DNA of 64,000 nt, taken from Tridacna crocea (taxonomy: Eukaryota > Mollusca > Bivalvia > Cardiida > Cardiidae). Below the pieces are notes generated by a model. That model was not told the origin of the DNA, ran no database searches, and saw only the letters and a program-made list of their open reading frames with translations. Below, in pieces: positions 18,999 through 34,884 of the stretch. The stretch's first letter is position 1. Each line of letters starts with the position of its first letter. Both the position numbers and the translations under genes were made by a program. The DNA lies in contig OX031063.1 of assembly GCA_943736015.1 (NCBI GenBank), positions 40,316,672 to 40,380,671 on the forward strand, in the 5' to 3' direction.

Positions 18999-19120
18999 AT
19001 GGAAATAAGGCCATCGGACATTCGTTTTTCCCAGGATTCTATCAATAATGTGTTTGACAAGCGATCCCTCCATTCGAATAAACCAATCGGACAAACTTTG
19101 GACGAGCTCTGTGAATACAG
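18999..19120 (+). CDS. Fusion gene, exon 1
   Basis: It encodes 40 complete codons, MEIRPSDIRFSQDS to TLDELCEY, plus AG of the next codon, before the donor GTGAGA. It carries the first ParB-like motif. Confidence 0.72.
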
Positions 19121-22100
19121 GTGAGAAAATAATTCGACGTCTGCTCTGTAAAAGGGGGTTTTCATTCATTTGCAAAAAGAATATTGACCGAAGTTAGCTT
19201 GCGTCGCCATTGCAGACTGACTCGAATCGAAACGATTTTTCTATTGGTTTTGTAAGTGTCAAATGGCCATTCTATCGCATGATGCAGTAGGTTTTTACCA
19301 CAGGAATCTGACATTCTATAACCAAAATAAATGATAAAATATGGAAAAAAATCCCCCCCCCCCCCTATATAATATAAACACAAGGAGTGCAACGTCTCGA
19401 TTGCTGGCGCGAGCACCCGACAGTCTTTCCCAACCAAAATCACCCACGAAACAAACATTGATCATAATCCCCTTCAGCCTAGCGATAGACAAGACATCAA
19501 TGTACCTGCAACATCCGGCGATACCTCAGTAGACACCTTTCAACCGGAGATATCCGTCATGTTTTACAGCTCTATCAGGACATTTTGATTTATCAGGGTG
19601 GCCATTCGCTGACGTCACAGAAAGTAGCAGGTAGCGTATTTTCGTATTACTTATTACTATTATTTTTTTCGTTTTTAAGATACTTATGGACATCACATGA
19701 TACTACAGATTTTTCTAGAATCTTTAGTATCATTTGATGTCCATAAATGTCTTAAAATCGAAAAAAATAATAGCAATAAGTAATACGAAAATACGCTTCC
19801 TTGCACTTCTTGTGACGTCAGCGAATGGCCACCCGGATAAATAAAAATGACCTGATAGAGCTGTAAAACATGACGGATATCTCCGATTGAAAGGTGTCTA
19901 CTGAGGTATCGCCGGATGTCGCAGGTACATTAATGTCTTGTCTATCGCTAGGCTGAAGGGGATTATGATCAATGTTTGTTTCGTGGGTGATTTTGGTTGG
20001 GAAAGGCTGTCGGGTGCTCGCGCCAGCAATCGAGACGTTGCACTCCTTGTGATTATATTATATAGGGGGGGATTTTTTTTCCCCATATTTTATCATTTAT
20101 TTTGGTTATAGAATGTCAGATTCCTGTGGTTTTTACATAAAGACGATCCACCGATCTAGATAGACTATGTGACGACAATGCAATAAAGCCCCTTCCCCCC
20201 TCCCCCACCCCCATCACGCCCCCACAGAGCAATATGCTCATTTGAATGTGCACAACACTAAAAACCTTTCGGGGCCTGAAACAGTAGATGTAAATCTAAA
20301 CAGTAATTCTATTAGACGAAAGCAAAGATTTGTCCATGATAGAAACATTTACAGACAATGAATCGAATGTGACTTAAAAGACGCTATTTTTAACAAGTTG
20401 GCAAAAGAAGCCGGGAGAGGTCAGTATCAATGTTTTCCAATAATTCGTTGGCTTTTAATTGCAATATATTCTGGTAAATGTTAACAAGAAAGTAATAAAA
20501 GCCTCCGCGTAGAAACCTCATATGCTTTACATGAAGGTCATCTGGCCTTCTTGTTGCGTTTTCAAGATCTTGTGTAGCAGTCATCTTTTTCTTTTTTAAC
20601 GAAATTTTCTTATTTTTTCTTCTGCTTAGATTTATTTGCTTAATGAAAAATTACAATTATTTTAGGGGTAATTTGCAGCCATTGCAAATTAATGTAACAA
20701 ATATTTTTTCTGAAATTCGTAATATAAAAACAAACCACGTCTATTTCCTGTTTCGCATTTTTGATTTCGCTTTATTTACAAAACCGTGAGGAAACAGACT
20801 GTGTATCAGAACAATTTCGCTAGAAAAATGGATTTAGACAGCAAATTCTGTGGCAGTCTTGCCTTTTAAACTCACCACTGTTGGAGAGGTCTGATGACCT
20901 CTCCAGTCAGTAGAAAATAAGAAGGATAAAATGCTGTTTACCAATGACTTCATACATGATGATGCAGTGTGTTATTTATGTTAATCTGTGAGTCTGCGTT
21001 TAAAGTTACACTATCGTTGTCGTTAATTTGATTTAAAAAACTACATTTTTCATGTTGAGTCAATTATACATGTCACCAGCAACTGGATAGGTGCAAATAG
21101 ATCCAATAATATGCTACCGATACCGTCAAGAATGAATACCAGCGTAAGCACCGTTTGGATATGAAAATCTTCCATCAGAAGCAGGCAATGTATTGAAAAA
21201 TTGCTTACTAATTGTTGGTAAACACCCCTGTTAAACGCTAGTTTGGTGCCAACACACGGAAAACGCCCAAAGATGATTCTGTGATATTGCAATTTTTGAA
21301 TTTTTCCTACTGACAAATATACTAAATTACATTATTACATAACATATTGGGTAATGTAGATCTACGATTCTGTGAAGTCTGATCTGGGTCAGACGTTCTA
21401 TCCCGCCAACCCTATACCAAACAAGCACGATCCTGTTGACGAAGTCGTTTGAAACACTGTAGAAAATGGAGGAAATGCTAGTAACTAGCATTTCTCCTTG
21501 TTTCCGTAATGCTTTTACCTTTTTAACCCTTAACCAAACGACAAAATTTTAGACTGGTCCAAATTAAAACCACTTGCAGACGATATAGTAAACGTAACTG
21601 AAATATTGAAATTCATTTCCGGCAGGGTAGAAAACGTTGTGGAAAAAGGAGAAAATGCTGGTTACCAGCATTTTCTCCTTTTCCCACAATGTTTTCAAAA
21701 GGCTTCTATCTCAGGGTCGTTAAAACCAGGGATTGTTTAGTAAAGGGTTAAATACAAATCCATCCATTTGGGCCGTATTCACTTTGTTATTTTCGATCTT
21801 AGTTATTTTTGACGAGTCTGAAGTCATGTCGTTTCTGCGTAAGTTCTCTGAATAAGCGTAAAAGTCTTTTTTTTTCCTTGCAGATGTTCTGTGAACGATA
21901 TTCCAAGAATTACTGTCGTGATGGAAGGAGGTAAATGGATAACAGCCGATAATCGCCGCTTGTGGGTATTTCGAGAACTTGAGAGACTTGGGAAATGTGA
22001 AACGGTACCAGTTAATGTTGGATATCACATACCTTTACAAAAGAGAACATCCTACAATAACGGAACATCAATTTTAGTCAGAGGCAACCCAGGTGGAATT

Positions 22101-22757
22101 TGGCACAGGAAACCAACTGTGAGTAGGGAGTTTTCCAGTATTCGTTCGCCGCCTGAGGATAGGTGGATGGGGAGAACGATTTCAAGAAATGATATCAGAA
22201 ATATGCAGCGGCCTCAGAGTCAGTTGAACCGGCCCGTAACTGACTATCGTCAAAGGAGTATTCAAGGTGATTCACTCTTGTCATCGTTGCGCGCCATAGA
22301 AACAAGCTTGAGTTCAATGACGGTTAGAGTACCGAGGTCTTGTGTTACAAGACATTCCTATGGTTTCAATGTTTGGAGAACATTTGTACCTGGAGTTCAC
22401 CCAGAAGAAAGGCGGGTGGTTTCGGATGGTGAGGTCAACTGCTACGGTTGTTTTGATAAATTCATTGCGAAAGACATGTATATTTCGGTTGGAGAGACTT
22501 TTGAACAAAAGACCTATTTAGCGTTTGCTGATACAGTTTCGCTTAAAATCTATCGTTCGAGCAAGGAAAACCCAAAGTTTGTAGATGAACCGGGGTGTTC
22601 CTTTGTGGATGATATAGCTGTAAACTTTACCATGAGCCCAGATCCCAGAAATAGACGCATTTTGGTTGAAGTTGTATATGATGGAATGGACCTTAAAGTA
22701 CAAGCTACGGTACTGGCAACCGGCCGTGTCTTTAAAAAAGAGGTTGAATTTAACTGA
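18999..22757 (+). CDS. ParB-like / HSPA12 C-terminal fusion protein (two exons)
   Basis: The two exons 18999-19120 and 21884-22757 splice at tacag|gtgag and ccttgcag|a to give a 331-residue protein; the split codon makes Arg-41. The start is the first ATG after an in-frame stop at 18936. Residues 1-90 form a ParB/sulfiredoxin-like fold: IRPSDIRFSQDSI, then VVMEGGKWITADNRRLWVFR, where the NRR motif corresponds to the family's nucleotide-binding box. Residues about 90-185 are a basic, Ser/Arg-rich linker. Residues about 190-331 (VPRSCVTRHSYGFNVW, then CYGCFDKFIAKDMYISVGE, ending RRILVEVVYDGMDLKV) follow the pattern of the C-terminal part of HSPA12-type Hsp70s, including the late beta-sandwich repeats. 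The Hsp70 ATPase lobes are absent. Exon 2 is uninterrupted for 874 nt. Intron 1 (2763 bp) holds an 830-bp palindrome and a TTAA MITE. Function is unknown. The ParB assignment is firmer than the HSPA12 one. Confidence 0.72.
19299..20128. mobile_element. 830-bp near-perfect palindrome with 8-bp target duplication
   Basis: The ends are CACAGGAATCTGACATTC and its complement, and the arms match almost base for base to a centre near 19713. Direct repeats GTTTTTAC lie at 19291-19298 and 20129-20136. An 8-bp duplication and CA...TG ends fit hAT-type transposition. No coding capacity was seen; each arm carries the same chance reading. It sits in intron 1 of the fusion gene. Confidence 0.85.
20137..21409. 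other. Intron 1 sequence of the fusion gene
   Basis: AT-rich sequence with one C-rich tract near 20190-20220. No gene or recognised repeat apart from a short GATCTGGGTCAGAC remnant near 21380. Confidence 0.5.
21410..21520 (-). mobile_element. Truncated TTAA MITE
   Basis: The left arm and a variant stem (AATGCTAGTAACTAGCATT) remain; the rest is missing up to the TTAA at 21523. Confidence 0.6.
21527..21747 (+). mobile_element. TTAA MITE, full length, 136 bp from an exon
   Basis: TTAA at 21523 and 21748; 221 bp. It lies just upstream of the acceptor of the fusion gene exon 2. Confidence 0.87.
21884..22757 (+). CDS. Fusion gene, exon 2
   Basis: It starts after a polypyrimidine tract ending CAG at 21883 and ends with TGA at 22755-22757. 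It encodes the DNRRLWVFR half of the ParB-like domain, the linker and the HSPA12-like tail in one open frame with no frameshift or stop, which argues for an active gene. Confidence 0.75.
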
Positions 22758-26501: not shown

Positions 26502-27164
26502 TTAACCTAAGTTACAGGGGTAAAATTGAAATTCCATTTGGCTGTATGAATTATTTAGCTATTGTCCTTCAAGTACACAAGACATGTCCGATTTATTTCA
26601 AATATTCACAAACTTTTATTCAGCGAGCATGACACAGCCGACACAAGGTAGCCAGTTTGTCATACAGGTATGTGCGCGAAAAGTAAGAATAAATCAGTGT
26701 TTAAAAAAAAAACTGACCTTTACACCCCGGTTACACAGACTGTCGGGCTTACATCCATTTCAAATCGGTGTCATTATTTCAATTTTTTTCGCTTTTTTAT
26801 CGGTTGTCATAGGTGACCTTATTTCAAGCTGTTTGTGTAAACGGCGATAAACAGGGGTTCAATCGGTCTTAAAAATATTCCGTCTTGCGCTGGTAGAGGC
26901 CCAATCGGGATCTGACCGGTGATTAAAGATATATACGGCCACAACATCTTTCCTTCACAATGGAGTCTTCTTGGACTTTCAAGACTTCGTTAGAGACAAA
27001 CATAACGGTTTTGCCTTGGTCGACGGATTTCTGGGAGTTCCCTTTGACCGACATACTAAGACAAATCGGAACTTGTCACAGAATTGTTACAGAATCAATC
27101 AGATATGGCGCTGGTGAATTTTTGTGGAAACTGAATTAAAATGCCTGTCGCGCATGTAACAAGT

Positions 27165-27268
27165 ATAAGTTATTGATCATATATTTCATTTGTATGAAAT
27201 TAAATCGGAGGGAGGCGAAGCCGACCGACGATTTAGTTTCATACAAATGAAATATATGATCAATAACT
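27165..27268. repeat. Palindrome opening each tandem unit
   Basis: Arms of about 42 bp (ATTGATCATATATTTCATTT and complement). At units 3 and 4 the dyad extends outward to about 68 bp because the preceding unit ends in AAAGTAGGGCAAACTGTAAG and the next begins CTTACAGTTTGCCCTACTTT. Copies start at 28562, 30007 and 31452. Confidence 0.8.
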
Positions 27269-28059
27269 AACTTACAGTTTGCCCTACTTTCTAATTGACT
27301 GACAGCTAAGGATGGGTGGAAAGAGCCATACAAGAACGACAGAAAGTTCGGTTCGACACGCCTCTTTTGATTGACGGTTGTACGTACGTGCGTTTTCAGT
27401 CGTACGGCGTTAAAACTGTCATTCAGGTTGTCCTTGAACTAGTTTCAGGACGATTGTCTGCAGTCAGGCTCATTCGGCATATCACGGGTGATGGTAGCCA
27501 TTATATCCCTCGTCTTTATCTAGTGGATTGATATGCAGCAGATCGGTACACCCGGAAATACGCCGGTACACCGTCCCGAAAATTGTCAGGCTCTTCTTCC
27601 AAAAGAAAACTTGGGTTTTAATTTTCTATCGAAATCTTTCGAACCATATTTCAGACGATAAACAATTCGTAGATCTACATTACTTTTTTTATCAATTTCG
27701 ATTGAAGTTTTAACCGACAGATAGACAGATGTGAATAATTTCATCGAAGTCGTTTATGTCGTTGCTAAACGAATCACATTGGCCCGCCATGTATAAGATC
27801 ACGTGACTCGCAGTCCAAATGTAAACGACCGTTATACGGACGAGGTTAGATGTAGGTACGGAATCGGCCGAATTTCATGTTCTTTGAAGCGATAGATTCA
27901 GCAATGGATGCATGCTTTGATCCGGTTGAAGACGAGGAATTTTATAAAGAATTTATTTTCGCCGACACAGGCGACGTCTCGCTAACACAACTGTGTAAAC
28001 ACCCATGTCCCTCTAAAGTGGCTCACTGTTCAGAATCTGTTTCATACAAGATAAGCCCT

Positions 28060-28303
28060 CTTTTTTATTGTCCTGAGGCAGAAGGCGCGTGAAAACATTG
28101 CGGGTAGAGGAGAAATTGCTTGTAAGGAGCATTTTCTCCTTTCCTGCTATGTTTCGTTTTTTCTTTCCACAGACAAATCCTTGAACAAGTACCAAGTTGT
28201 TGTCTGCAAACGGTTCCAAATTGGACCCAAGCCAAATTTCCCAGCCTGGTAAAGACTTCCTTACCAGGGTCCTTAAAACCAGAGGCTGTTTGGTAAAGGG
28301 TTA
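28060..28303 (-). mobile_element. Diverged TTAA MITE within the tandem unit
   Basis: GAAAACATTGCGGGTAGAGG, AAATTGCTTGTAAGGAGCATT and TTTGGTAAAGGGTTAA identify it. Matching copies lie at about 29455-29688, 30895-31133 and 32340-32578, so the insertion predates amplification of the array. Confidence 0.7.
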
Positions 28304-31300
28304 AATACCACGTGGCCAAGTACGAATTGTTTAGTCCCGATATTTACGTGGAAATTACGTCACTTTTTTGGCGATGATGCAATTATTTGGAATAGTCCCC
28401 GCCCCTTTTACTACAGTGTATGCATTAGATTGGTATTTACTCTACAAGGACCAGCTAAAATACTGTGGGCGGAGATTCTCGTTAACCGGGATACAACTGT
28501 ATATAGGTCAACCATTTAATGATTAAGTGGTCACATATTGCAACATATTGAGTCTGTATGTATAAGTTATTGATCATATATTTCATTTGTATGGAATTAA
28601 ATCGGAGGGAGGCGAAGCCGACCGACGATTTAGTTTCATACAAATGAAATATATGATCAATAACTAACTTACAGTTTGCCCTACTTTCTAATTGACTGAC
28701 AGCTAAGAATTGGTGGAAAGAGCCATACAAGAACGACAGAAAGCTCAGTTCGACACGCCTCTTTTGATTGACGGTTGTACGTACGTGCGTTTTCAGTCGT
28801 ATGGCGTTAAAACTGTTACTCAGGTTGTCCTTGAACTAGTTTCAGGACAATTGTCTGCAGTCAGACTCATTCGGCATATCACGGGTGATGGTAGCCATCA
28901 TATCCCTCGTCTGTATCTAGTGGATTGATATGCAGCAGATCGGTACACTCGGAAATACGCCGGTATACCGTTCTGAAAATTGTCAGGCTCCTCTTCCAAA
29001 AGAAAACTTGGGTTTTAATTTTTTATCGAAATCTTTCGAACCATATTTCGACAAACAATTCGTAGATCTACATTAATTTTTTTTATCAATTTCGATTGAA
29101 GTTTTAACCGACAGATACACAGATGTGAATAACTTCATTGAGGTCGTTAAGTCGTTGCTAAACGAATCACATTGGCCCGCCATTGTATAAGATCATGTGA
29201 CTCGCAGTTCAAATGTAAACGGCCGTTTTACGGGCGAGATTAGATGTAGGTACGGAAACTGCCGAATTTCATGCTCTTTGAAGCGATAGATTCTGCAATG
29301 GATGCATGCTTTGAACCGGTTGAAGACGAGGAATTTTATAAAGAATTCATTTTCCCCGACAAAGGCGACGTGTTGCTAACACAGGTGTGTACAATAAACA
29401 CCCATGTCCCTCTAAAGTGGCTCATTGTCAAGGATCTGCTTCATACCAGATAAGCCCTCTTTTTTACTGCCCTGAGGCAGAAGGCGCGTGAAAACATTGC
29501 GGGTAGAGGAGAAATTGCTTGTAAGGAGCATTTTCTCCTTTCCTGCTATGTCTCTTTTTTTTCTTTCCACAGACAAATCCTTTAATTTGAGCAAGTACCA
29601 AGTTGTTGTCTGCAAACGGTTTCAAATTGGACCCAAGCCAAATTTCCCAGCCTGGTAGTCAAAACCAAAGGTTATTTGGTAAAGGGTTAAATACCAGGTG
29701 GCCAAGTACGAGTTATTTAGTCCCGATATTCACGTGGAAATTACGTCACTTTTTTGGCGATGATGCAATTACTTGGAATAATCCCCGCCCCTTTTACTAC
29801 AGTGTATGCATTAGATTGGTATTTACTCTACAAGGACCAGCTAAAATACTGTGGGCGGAGCTTCTCGTTAACCGGGATACAACTGTATATAGGTCAACCA
29901 TTTAATAACATATTGCAACATATTGAGTCTGTATGGAATTAAATCCAGCAGTTTTGAACGAAATCCGGCGTTTTCATTGGTTTAGAAAGTAGGGCAAACT
30001 GTAAGTATAAGTTATTGATCATATATTTCATTTGTATGGAATTAAATCGGAGGGAGGCGAAGCCGACCGAGGATTTAGTTTCATACAAATGAAATATATG
30101 ATCAATAACTAACTTACAGTTTGCCCTACTTTCTTATTGACTGACAGCTAAGAATTGGTGGAAAGAGCCATACAAGAACGACAGAAAGCTCAGTTCGACA
30201 CGCCTCTTTTGATTGACGGTTGTACGTACGTGCGTTTTCAGTCGTATGGCGTTAAAACTGTTACTCAGGTTGTCCTTGAACTAGTTTCAGGACAATTGTC
30301 TGCAGTCAGACTCATTCGGCATATCACGGGTGATGGTAGCCATCATATCCCTCGTCTGTATCTAGTGGATTGATATGCAGCAGATCGGTACACTCGGAAA
30401 TACGCCGGTATACCGTTCTGAAAATTGTCAGGCTCCTCTTCCAAAAGAAAACTTGGGTTTTAATTTTTTATCGAAATCTTTCGAACCATATTTCGACAAA
30501 CAATTCGTAGATCTACATCAATTTTTTTTATCAATTTCGATTGAAGTTTTAACCGACAGATACACAGATGTGAATAACTTCATTGAGGTCGTTAAGTCGT
30601 TGCTAAACGAATCACATTGGCCCGCCATTGTATAAGATCATGTGACTCGCAGTTCAAATGTAAACGGCCGTTTTACGGGCGAGATTAGATGTAGGTACGG
30701 AAACTGCCGAATTTCATGCTCTTTGAAGCGATAGATTCAGCAATGGATGCATGCTTTGAGCCGGTTGAAGACGAGGAATTTTATAAAGAATTTATTTTCC
30801 CCGACAAAGGCGACGTGTTGCTAACACAAGTGTGTACAATAAACACCCATGTCCCTCTAAAGTGGCTCATTGTCCAGGATCTGCTTCATACCAGATAAGC
30901 CCTCTTTTTTACTGCCCTGAGGCAGAAGGCGCGTGAAAACATTGCGGGTAGAGGAGAAATTGCTTGTAAGGAGCATTTTCTCCTTTCCTGCTATGTCTCT
31001 TTTTTTTCTTTCCACAGACAAATCCTTTAATTTGAGCAAGTACCAAGTTGTTGTCTGCAAACGGTTTCAAATTGGACCCAAGCCAAATTTCCCAGCCTGG
31101 TAGTCAAAACCAAAGGTTATTTGGTAAAGGGTTAAATACCAGGTGGCCAAGTTCGAGTTATTTAGTCCCGATATTCACGTGGAAATTACGTCACTTTTTT
31201 GGCGATGATGCAATTATTTGGAATAGTCCCCGCCCCTTTTACTACAGTGTATGCATTAGATTGGTATTTACTCTACAAGGACCAGCTAAAATACTGTGGG

Positions 31301-32823
31301 CGGAGCTTCTCGTTAACCGGGATACAACTGTATATAGGTCAACCATTTAATAACATATTGCAACATATTGAGTCTGTATGGAATTAAATCCAGCAGTTTT
31401 GAACGAAATCCGGCGTTTTCATTGGTTTAGAAAGTAGGGCAAACTGTAAGTATAAGTTATTGATCATATATTTCATTTGTATGGAATTAAATCGGAGGGA
31501 GGCGAAGCCGACCGAGGATTTAGTTTCATACAAATGAAATATATGATCAATAACTAACTTACAGTTTGCCCTACTTTCTTATTGACTGACAGCTAAGAAT
31601 TGGTGGAAAGAGCCATACAAGAACGACAGAAAGCTCAGTTCGACACGCCTCTTTTGATTGACGGTTGTACGTACGTGCGTTTTCAGTCGTATGGCGTTAA
31701 AACTGTTACTCAGGTTGTCCTTGAACTAGTTTCAGGACAATTGTCTGCAGTCAGACTCATTCGGCATATCACGGGTGATGGTAGCCATCATATCCCTCGT
31801 CTGTATCTAGTGGATTGATATGCAGCAGATCGGTACACTCGGAAATACGCCGGTATACCGTTCTGAAAATTGTCAGGCTCCTCTTCCAAAAGAAAACTTG
31901 GGTTTTAATTTTTTATCGAAATCTTTCGAACCATATTTCGACAAACAATTCGTAGATCTACATCAATTTTTTTTATCAATTTCGATTGAAGTTTTAACCG
32001 ACAGATACACAGATGTGAATAACTTCATTGAGGTCGTTAAGTCGTTGCTAAACGAATCACATTGGCCCGCCATTGTATAAGATCATGTGACTCGCAGTTC
32101 AAATGTAAACGGCCGTTTTACGGGCGAGATTAGATGTAGTTACGGAAACTGCCGAATTTCATGCTCTTTGAAGCGATAGATTCAGCAATGGATGCATGCT
32201 TTGAGCCGGTTGAAGACGAGGAATTTTATAAAGAATTTATTTTCCCCGACAAAGGCGACGTGTTGCTAACACAAGTGTGTACAATAAACACCCATGTCCC
32301 TCTAAAGTGGCTCATTGTCCAGGATCTGCTTCATACCAGATAAGCCCTCTTTTTTACTGCCCTGAGGCAGAAGGCGCGTGAAAACATTGCGGGTAGAGGA
32401 GAAATTGCTTGTAAGGAGCATTTTCTCCTTTCCTGCTATGTCTCTTTTTTTTCTTTCCACAGACAAATCCTTTAATTTGAGCAAGTACCAAGTTGTTGTC
32501 TGCAAACGGTTTCAAATTGGACCCAAGCCAAATTTCCCAGCCTGGTAGTCAAAACCAAAGGTTATTTGGTAAAGGGTTAAATACCAGGTGGCCAAGTTCG
32601 AGTTATTTAGTCCCGATATTCACGTGGAAATTACGTCACTTTTTTGGCGATGATGCAATTACTTGGAATAATCCCCGCCCCTTTTACTACAGTGTATGCA
32701 TTAGATTGGTATTTACTCTACAAGGACCAGCTAAAATACTGTGGGCGGAGCTTCTCGTTAACCGGGATACAACTGTATATAGGTCAACCATTTAATAACA
32801 TATTGCAACATATTGAGTCTGTA

Positions 32824-33696: not shown

Positions 33697-33938
33697 TCCT
33701 TTCTCAAACAATCACGACTCTTAACGACCATGAGAAAGACGGTTTTTGAAAACACTGTGGGAAATGGAGAAAATGCTGGAGTGTTAACCAGCATTTTCTC
33801 CTTTTCTCACAAAGTTTTCTACACTACAAAGGACAAATAAAATAATCAGTTGGGCCACCTTTAATTTTTTGTCTGCAAATACATGCATGTACTCTCGATT
33901 TGGACCCGTCTGAATTTTTTTGTTTGGTATCTATAGAG
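33697..33938 (-). mobile_element. TTAA MITE next to the mariner remnant
   Basis: Left TTAA at 33693; the right site is TTTA. The stem apex has extra bases (GGAGTGTTAACC). Confidence 0.8.
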
Positions 33939-33942
33939 TTTA

Positions 33943-34615
33943 CCCTAATAGCAACCCGCAATCGCTTGATAAGTTCAGCATAGTAGGCCCCTGTGATGGA
34001 AATACCAGCAGGTTTGCGGCCATAACCTTGCCAGCTCATGGTTGTTTTGAACTTATTCGGAGGGGATGAGCCAGGGCGCTTCCATTGCATGGACTCTTTT
34101 TTAGTATCTAGGTCCCAGTGGTGAATCCATGTTTCATCTCCAGTCACAAGACGGGTATGGAAGTCATCAGCATTAGCATTGTAAACTTCAAGAAGTTCAA
34201 GACTTGACTCTACCCTTTGCTGGCGATCCTGTGGATTCAGGTTTCTGGGGACCCATCTAGCAGATACCTTTGACATACCCAAAAGCTCGTGAATGATGGT
34301 AAAAACACTTCCATGTGAAATACCACACTCTCTTGCAAGTTCATCGAGTTTGATTCTACGATCATTCAACACAAGTCTCTCAACGCGGTCGATCATTTCC
34401 TGGTTGATGACATCAGCAGGTCGACCTGACCGTGGGTCATCTTCCAGGGAGCTGTGTCCCCGTTTAAGTTCAGATGACCATTTTGCCACTGTCGAATACT
34501 GAGGACTACTGTCACCATGCGCGTCAGCCATGCGACGGTGAATTTCTTTGGCATTTGCTCCCCCTTTAGTGAGGAACTTTATAGTAGCTCTAAACTCAAT
34601 GTTCGGATTTGACAT
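33943..34615 (-). pseudogene. Mariner transposase, 3'-truncated and frameshifted
   Basis: Read from the ATG at 34615, the frame starts MSNPNIEFRATIKFL and shows the paired helix-turn-helix region of mariner transposases (YSTVAKWSSELKRG, DDPRSGRPADV, LARECGISHGSV). The catalytic core start VTGDETWIHHWD follows, with the first catalytic Asp. Near 34045 the frame shifts and about 45 bp is missing before SITGAYYAELIKRLRVAI. The match then stops and runs into a TTAA MITE at 33697-33938. The second and third catalytic Asp residues (HDN... and the last D) are gone, so no active enzyme can be made. A full mariner transposase is about 345 residues. No terminal repeat was identified. A 22-bp direct repeat near 34669-34713 lies just upstream. 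Confidence 0.85.
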
Positions 34616-34884
34616 CTTGGCGTATTGGTATAGTGTTTCAACTACAATGCAAGAGCAAACAATGTACGTGTTAACTGTATGGATGTTGTCAGTTAACTGT
34701 ATGGATGTTGTCATACAACTAACAAAAGTTTATACTTAGATGGGGCGAAAAAATATATTTCAAATTATACCAATAAATACCGAGTTCTATGGACTTTTGA
34801 CCTTTCCTCGTATAAGAAAATGCTGTCCAGCATAGCAAACATTCTTGATTATAGGTTGAAAAATAAGTTGAAAAAAAAAAGCAT

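Follow-up and report, generated by a model that had tools for sequence, protein, structure and literature searches.

A two-exon gene in Tridacna crocea

The sequence considered here is a stretch of 64,000 nucleotides (nt) of the bivalve Tridacna crocea (contig OX031063.1, positions 40,316,672 to 40,380,671, forward strand; hereafter the window). Between positions 18999 and 22757, this window carries what appears, from its sequence, to be an animal gene that encodes a protein of 331 amino acids (aa) with two domains. We demonstrate here the structure of the gene and the similarities of both domains, the first to bacterial toxin-type domains that fit the family Tox-ParBL1 and the second to the substrate-binding domain (SBD) of Hsp70-type chaperones. 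The features of the gene are the following:

18999..19120, + strand: coding exon 1, for aa 1-40 plus the first two bases of codon 41, including the start of the ParBL1-like domain (translation, alignment)
19023-19034, + strand: RFSQ motif, in exon 1 (translation, alignment to the bacterial relatives)
19121..21883, + strand: GT-AG intron, phase 2
21884..22757, + strand: coding exon 2, from the third base of codon 41 through aa 331, then the stop TGA
21884..22088, + strand: second part of the Tox-ParBL1-like domain, the whole domain being aa 3-109 and its last motif NNGTSILVRG (bacterial-only profile)
21948..21959, + strand: DNRR motif, aa 63-66, four residues invariant across the 22 bacterial relatives
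22089..22325, + strand: arginine-rich linker, aa 110-188 (Pfam gives no family anywhere in the protein, up to E 10)
22326..22754, + strand: putative HSPA12-type tail, aa 189-331, resembling the Hsp70 substrate-binding beta domain (sequence and profile comparison)

The joined exons (122 and 874 nt) give 996 nt, that is 331 codons and the TGA, with zero internal stops. Translation therefore confirms the intact two-exon frame and the clean GT-AG intron that had been claimed in an original prediction made from the bare sequence; the two motifs named there are also present, IRPSDIRFSQ being encoded by exon 1 and ADNRRLWVFR by exon 2. The donor (CAG/GTGAGA) and acceptor (TTTTTTTTTCCTTGCAG/A) both match the consensus, and in-frame stops lie upstream of the ATG, which stands in the context AAGG-ATG-G. 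Measured from stop to stop, the frame of exon 2 reaches 301 aa; in 60 simulated 64-kilobase (kb) windows (third-order Markov model), the longest frames, one per window, had 131-224 aa. The splice is also supported by homology, because the residues encoded by the two exons align collinearly to the bacterial domain, unbroken at the junction, so that the domain is restored in register; within exon 1, the window protein has about five extra residues compared to most relatives. Exon 2 by itself encodes that half of the first domain which contains DNRR, ADNRRLWVFR included, and the entire chaperone-like tail, and the fusion is therefore independent of the splice. An origin of the fusion through mis-splicing was rejected.

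The N-terminal domain and its bacterial relatives

A tblastn search of plasmids with the N-terminal domain found two weak matches (E 0.01 and 0.04). Aligned with the window sequence (alignment A2), these two sequences brought in 20 further loci from bacterial genomes, drawn from 101 pattern-matching stretches, giving a bacterial set of 22. A hidden Markov model (HMM) of these 22 bacterial sequences, without that of the window, matches aa 3-109 of the window protein over model positions 3-103/104, with 54.7 bits and an E of 1.1e-13 (library size of 177,635 sequences), figures that are not fully independent because the window sequence helped to collect the set. As controls, none of 1000 shuffled sequences was matched at E<=10, nor was the reversed protein. 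Although the search patterns did not contain it, the end motif agrees: the window has NNGTSILVRG, the bacterial sequences mostly N-x-G-x-S/T-I-x-V-R-G. Seven of the nine columns that are invariant in the bacterial sequences are kept by the window protein, as are 11 of the 16 positions found in 20 or 21 of the 22; the residues retained include the RFSQ serine (S11), D63, N64 R65 R66, K94 and R107. No relative was found in viral contigs with the N-terminal domain as query and one (L023) with a larger profile; identity of the window domain to its relatives, L023 included, is 29-39%. A later search of plasmids with the bacterial domain found three records, namely the two already known and one in Streptomyces globisporus, which was left out of the 22. 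Matches in 18 phage records (E 1 to 10), several of which lie in genes annotated as hypothetical or HNH endonuclease, were taken as chance. Searches of the PDB with profiles of the domain (alignment A3) and of the tail (alignment A1) found chance-level matches only, and Pfam named six families among the 23 members of A3, with a best E of 0.025 and at most two members each.

Each of the 22 bacterial proteins ends with the domain (99-106 residues from the start of the domain to the stop), and a small frame on the same strand closely follows. According to Pfam, this small gene belongs to DUF7660 (PF24693) in 18 of the 22 loci, i.e. in both plasmids and in 16 of the 20 genome loci. Four loci (L003, L007, L014 and L022) have a small next gene of another type, which Pfam does not name and which encodes 126-140 aa with a T-T-x-D-C motif, and a frame with V-T-I-D-C follows the domain in the viral-contig relative L023 (4243-4692). 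The last 600 residues or less of ten of the 20 genome-contig proteins were scanned: PT-HINT was found in two and RHS repeats in three (L003 having both), the four carriers being L003, L009, L020 and L022, and neither was found in six. L001 has a match to the PT-TG pre-toxin family (E 6e-4) that is under the cut-off of Pfam. This gene, one of the two toxin-like plasmid genes, starts with what we take to be the end of an RHS core, and both plasmid relatives are followed by a DUF7660 gene. To judge from their sequences, the bacterial relatives have the anatomy of polymorphic toxins with their immunity genes. DUF7660 is probably the immunity protein of the ParBL1-like toxin domain, because it follows this domain in 18 of the 22 loci. 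If so, a function would be given to a Pfam family of unknown function; the immunity partners listed for Tox-ParBL1 in the available part of PMC3482391 are Imm-SUKH and Imm44, not DUF7660, which is a later name.

Assignment of the domain to Tox-ParBL1

Two other names were considered for the domain and rejected. Canonical partition ParB has DNA-binding and dimerisation parts after its ParB domain; the window protein has no ParB-family match, and after residue 109 only the linker and the Hsp70-type tail follow. As for sulfiredoxin, neither sequence nor profile searches of Pfam or the PDB gave a match, sulfiredoxin sequences not having been compared directly.

Tox-ParBL1 was described by Zhang et al. 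2012 (PMC3482391, cited here and below for those parts that were available) as a domain of RHS and HINT toxins with a predicted ParB fold, a conserved N-terminal [ST] and a [NT][RT][RT] motif. Its profile is reported there to reach 1vz0 with an HHpred probability of 93%. The window protein carries both motifs, as the S11 of RFSQ and the N64 R65 R66 of DNRR. The same paper also places Tox-ParBL1 in metazoa, choanoflagellates, plants, fungi and other eukaryotes, whose copies are regarded as acquired from toxin systems and as separate from sulfiredoxin. The domain of the window thus fits Tox-ParBL1, an assignment based on motif, fold class and context and not on the type member, Neisseria NGK_2271. 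Where the original prediction had proposed a ParB/sulfiredoxin-like domain, the relation to ParB stands, through the Tox-ParBL1 motif and the bacterial HMM, whereas the likeness to sulfiredoxin, which no search matched, is not supported.

By prediction, ParBL1 is among the toxin domains that target nucleic acids, and members of the ParB superfamily are thought to carry out metal-dependent phosphoryl transfer (PMC3482391). Some members of the ParB/sulfiredoxin superfamily nick single-stranded DNA under the control of ATP (PMC12839542, in part).

The C-terminal tail

The tail of the window protein was compared with tails that we presume to be those of human HSPA12A and HSPA12B. Residues 189-331 are 30% identical to both of these unconfirmed sequences, and a single comparison with the presumed HSPA12A tail, likewise unconfirmed, gave 29% identity over 140 residues (E 2e-19). 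A PDB search with the presumed HSPA12A tail found no HSPA12 entry that would confirm it.

A second comparison used a profile of nine SBD-type sequences from plasmids and E. coli. It includes L032, from a gene annotated as GrpE, and L029, from an unannotated record, which were kept because both matched the DnaK query. The window tail alone matches this profile over 96 columns with P 7e-4 (score 26.8, best of 200 shuffles 22.4), which supports the Hsp70/HSPA12-type C-terminal beta domain of the original prediction. With the presumed human tails added to it, the match reaches P 1.4e-6 (probability 90%, score 42.5, best of 100 shuffles 21.6). The alignment spans positions 20-117 of the 138 SBD positions used. 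Cross-controls gave P 0.066 for the ParBL1-like family against the Hsp70 SBD and P 0.27 for the tail against ParB. Searches with the tail found no match at E<=1 in plasmids and no relative in viral contigs.

The protein stops where the beta domain stops, and no lid helices follow. Up to an E of 10, Pfam found no Hsp70-family match in the protein, and hence no Hsp70 nucleotide-binding domain, in agreement with the claim that the ATPase lobes are missing; residues 1-109 are occupied by the ParBL1-like domain. The proposal that the gene arose by capture of an HSPA12 3' exon fared less well: it is weakened because the junction between the domains (22089-22325) lies within one exon, with no intron at the boundary.

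Repeats and other features of the window

The intron contains one further feature:

19297..20130, no strand assigned: long inverted repeat, with 353-nt arms that are 94% complementary and 7 nt between them, and outer arms of 66 nt (91%)

This inverted repeat is probably a transposable element and lies outside the protein. A palindromic repeat of about 71 nt (D2) occurs at 74 places of the 64 kb, from position 119 on, at identities of at least 60%, i.e. about once per 0.9 kb; the intron contains a copy, at 21628-21698. Its appearance is that of a short inverted-repeat element in high copy number. Further downstream, a unit of about 1.4 kb stands four times in a row, head to tail, over 27157-32796 (start-to-start distances of about 1390, 1445 and 1445), three of the four being 99% alike in stretch D15. 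On the minus strand, a 301-aa frame (33824-34729) encodes the helix-turn-helix domain of a Mos1-type mariner transposase (PF17906, above the Pfam cut-off). Among ten other frames scanned with Pfam across the window, it alone received a name.

How the protein may work

Combined with what is known of both families, these data allow the following model to be drawn. The N-terminal domain would be a domesticated Tox-ParBL1 domain, akin to the warheads of bacterial polymorphic toxins, that has kept their signature residues. The C-terminal domain would be the beta-sandwich SBD of a chaperone of the HSPA12 type, separated from its ATPase and most likely serving as an ATP-independent module that binds exposed peptides or partner proteins. 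After recognition of its ligand, the tail might, quite speculatively, bring the ParBL1 domain to a target or release it, and this domain would then act, probably by phosphoryl transfer or cleavage on nucleic acid, as knowledge of the family suggests. The same knowledge, together with the stress response of HSPA12 genes in a mussel and the Hsp70 domains of oyster immune-type proteins (both below), would place the action in stress or innate defence. In animals, toxin-derived domains often serve in defence or cell death and are sometimes inactive (PMC3482391). As a whole, this reading, i.e. a stress or defence effector made of a domesticated Tox-ParBL1 domain and an ATPase-free HSPA12-type SBD tail, is favoured only tentatively and given somewhat less than an even chance. 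Its boldest form, an animal sensor-effector in which misfolded or foreign peptides, perceived through a free-standing Hsp70 module, set where or when a toxin-derived domain acts with no ATPase cycle, is improbable.

Several observations weigh against the favoured reading. At two of the nine bacterial invariants the window differs, with T for R at 51 and L for A at 73, and in a tree for which L023 was added to the relatives no other branch comes near the length of its own (3.79). This length and the identity of 29-39% also speak against a recent transfer. The profile of the window family resembles seven ParB sequences weakly (P 0.0034, score 21.7, best of 100 shuffles 17.7), in an alignment that pairs DNRR with the GERR box of ParB. 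Searched by sequence, whether with the entire window protein or with one of its halves, Pfam, NCBIfam, PHROGs and the PDB yielded nothing significant. For the tail, the human HSPA12 sequences are presumed ones, set down when the window sequence was already known, and without the window sequence these two match the SBD profile weakly (P 0.014). Moreover, the comparison of tail alignment A1 with E. coli DnaK alone (hhalign) is not significant (probability 0.4, P 0.17). The main doubt concerns the first domain, which may no longer be an enzyme: the two changed invariants and the very long branch suggest that its activity may be lost.

This doubt leads to the strongest alternative, in which the architecture is the same and the ParBL1 domain, catalytically dead, is a binding or dimerising scaffold, like the toxin-derived GHH domain of teneurins. 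The existence of inactive toxin domains in animals (PMC3482391) is a precedent for it, and the long branch and the change of two of nine invariants are what it would lead one to expect; on the other hand, the residues described for the family, i.e. the serine of RFSQ and NRR, are kept, as are D63, K94 and R107. We consider such a scaffold unlikely, though it is to be taken seriously.

Less probable still is a self-restraining effector, whose tail would fold back on the toxin-derived domain or shield it until a ligand is bound, as a cis counterpart of the immunity protein that acts in trans. It would account for the fact that the 22 bacterial copies all have a small same-strand gene downstream, DUF7660 in 18 of them, whereas the animal copy has a fused tail instead; however, the contact and the inhibition are purely conjectural.

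The protein might also be an ordinary relative of chaperones, i.e. an HSPA12 paralogue that has lost its ATPase and whose tail binds clients, the N-terminal domain being an incidental leader. HSPA12 genes are indeed reported, in parts of PMC8774603, as expanded and stress-induced in Mytilus edulis, but a leader of this kind is hard to reconcile with an N-terminal domain that is complete and conserved through its last motif, which makes this view quite improbable. That the gene is recently dead or dying is very improbable: repeats crowd its intron and flanks, but its 331 codons are free of stops and frameshifts, its splice sites are clean and both domains are recognisable. Finally, two separate genes, or an annotation artefact in which exon 2 is part of another gene, can practically be set aside, as no point in support of them was found and a single open frame in exon 2 covers the entire tail together with part of the first domain.

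Novelty and significance

The presence of the ParBL1 domain in animals has been known since 2012 and the kind of tail is known as well; their fusion is apparently undescribed. No paper with the fusion turned up in the literature searched, a scope that excludes Additional File 1 of PMC3482391 (eukaryotic members) and annotated animal-protein databases, and within these bounds the original prediction of an undescribed domain order holds. The words 'hsp70' and 'chaperone' have no occurrence in 300,000 of the 357,715 characters of PMC3482391, and the fusion is not described in the available parts of PMC3710099, PMC11754067, PMC5512222 and PMC12839542.

Toxin domains adopted by animals have become important tools, as exemplified by the AID/APOBEC deaminases, the CIDE nuclease and teneurin (Zhang et al. 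2012, PMC3482391). ParBL1 is little understood: its fold is predicted, and the literature passages available mention no role for it in animals. Its junction with the ligand-binding end of a chaperone would offer a testable partner for it. It also suggests an Hsp70 beta domain that is able to spread on its own, as a recognition module.

Comparison with known systems

Among bivalve proteins, the immune-type DED-TRADD-N proteins of Crassostrea virginica carry C-terminal HSP70 domains and are alike in having an Hsp70-family domain in a variable C-terminal region behind an adaptor part (PMC8195603, in part). They differ in their first part, ParB occurring 0 times in the main text of that paper.

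Compared to Hsp70 and DnaK, the window protein lacks a lid after the SBD, and no ATPase was found before it. With HSPA12A and HSPA12B it presumably shares a tail of about 143 residues, known here from the presumed human sequences; it is not an HSPA12 chaperone as a whole, since no nucleotide-binding domain was found.

With the partition protein ParB and with sulfiredoxin, the N-terminal domain has in common a predicted superfamily (PMC3482391), and the similarity is weak. The closest likeness is to Tox-ParBL1, with full-length similarity to the 22 bacterial toxin-type domains that extends to the VRG end motif. The two differ in their surroundings: the bacterial domain is C-terminal and has a small neighbouring gene, whereas the window copy is N-terminal, split by an intron and followed by a chaperone tail. 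A C-terminal position is, however, not required of the eukaryotic copies of Tox-ParBL1 (PMC3482391).

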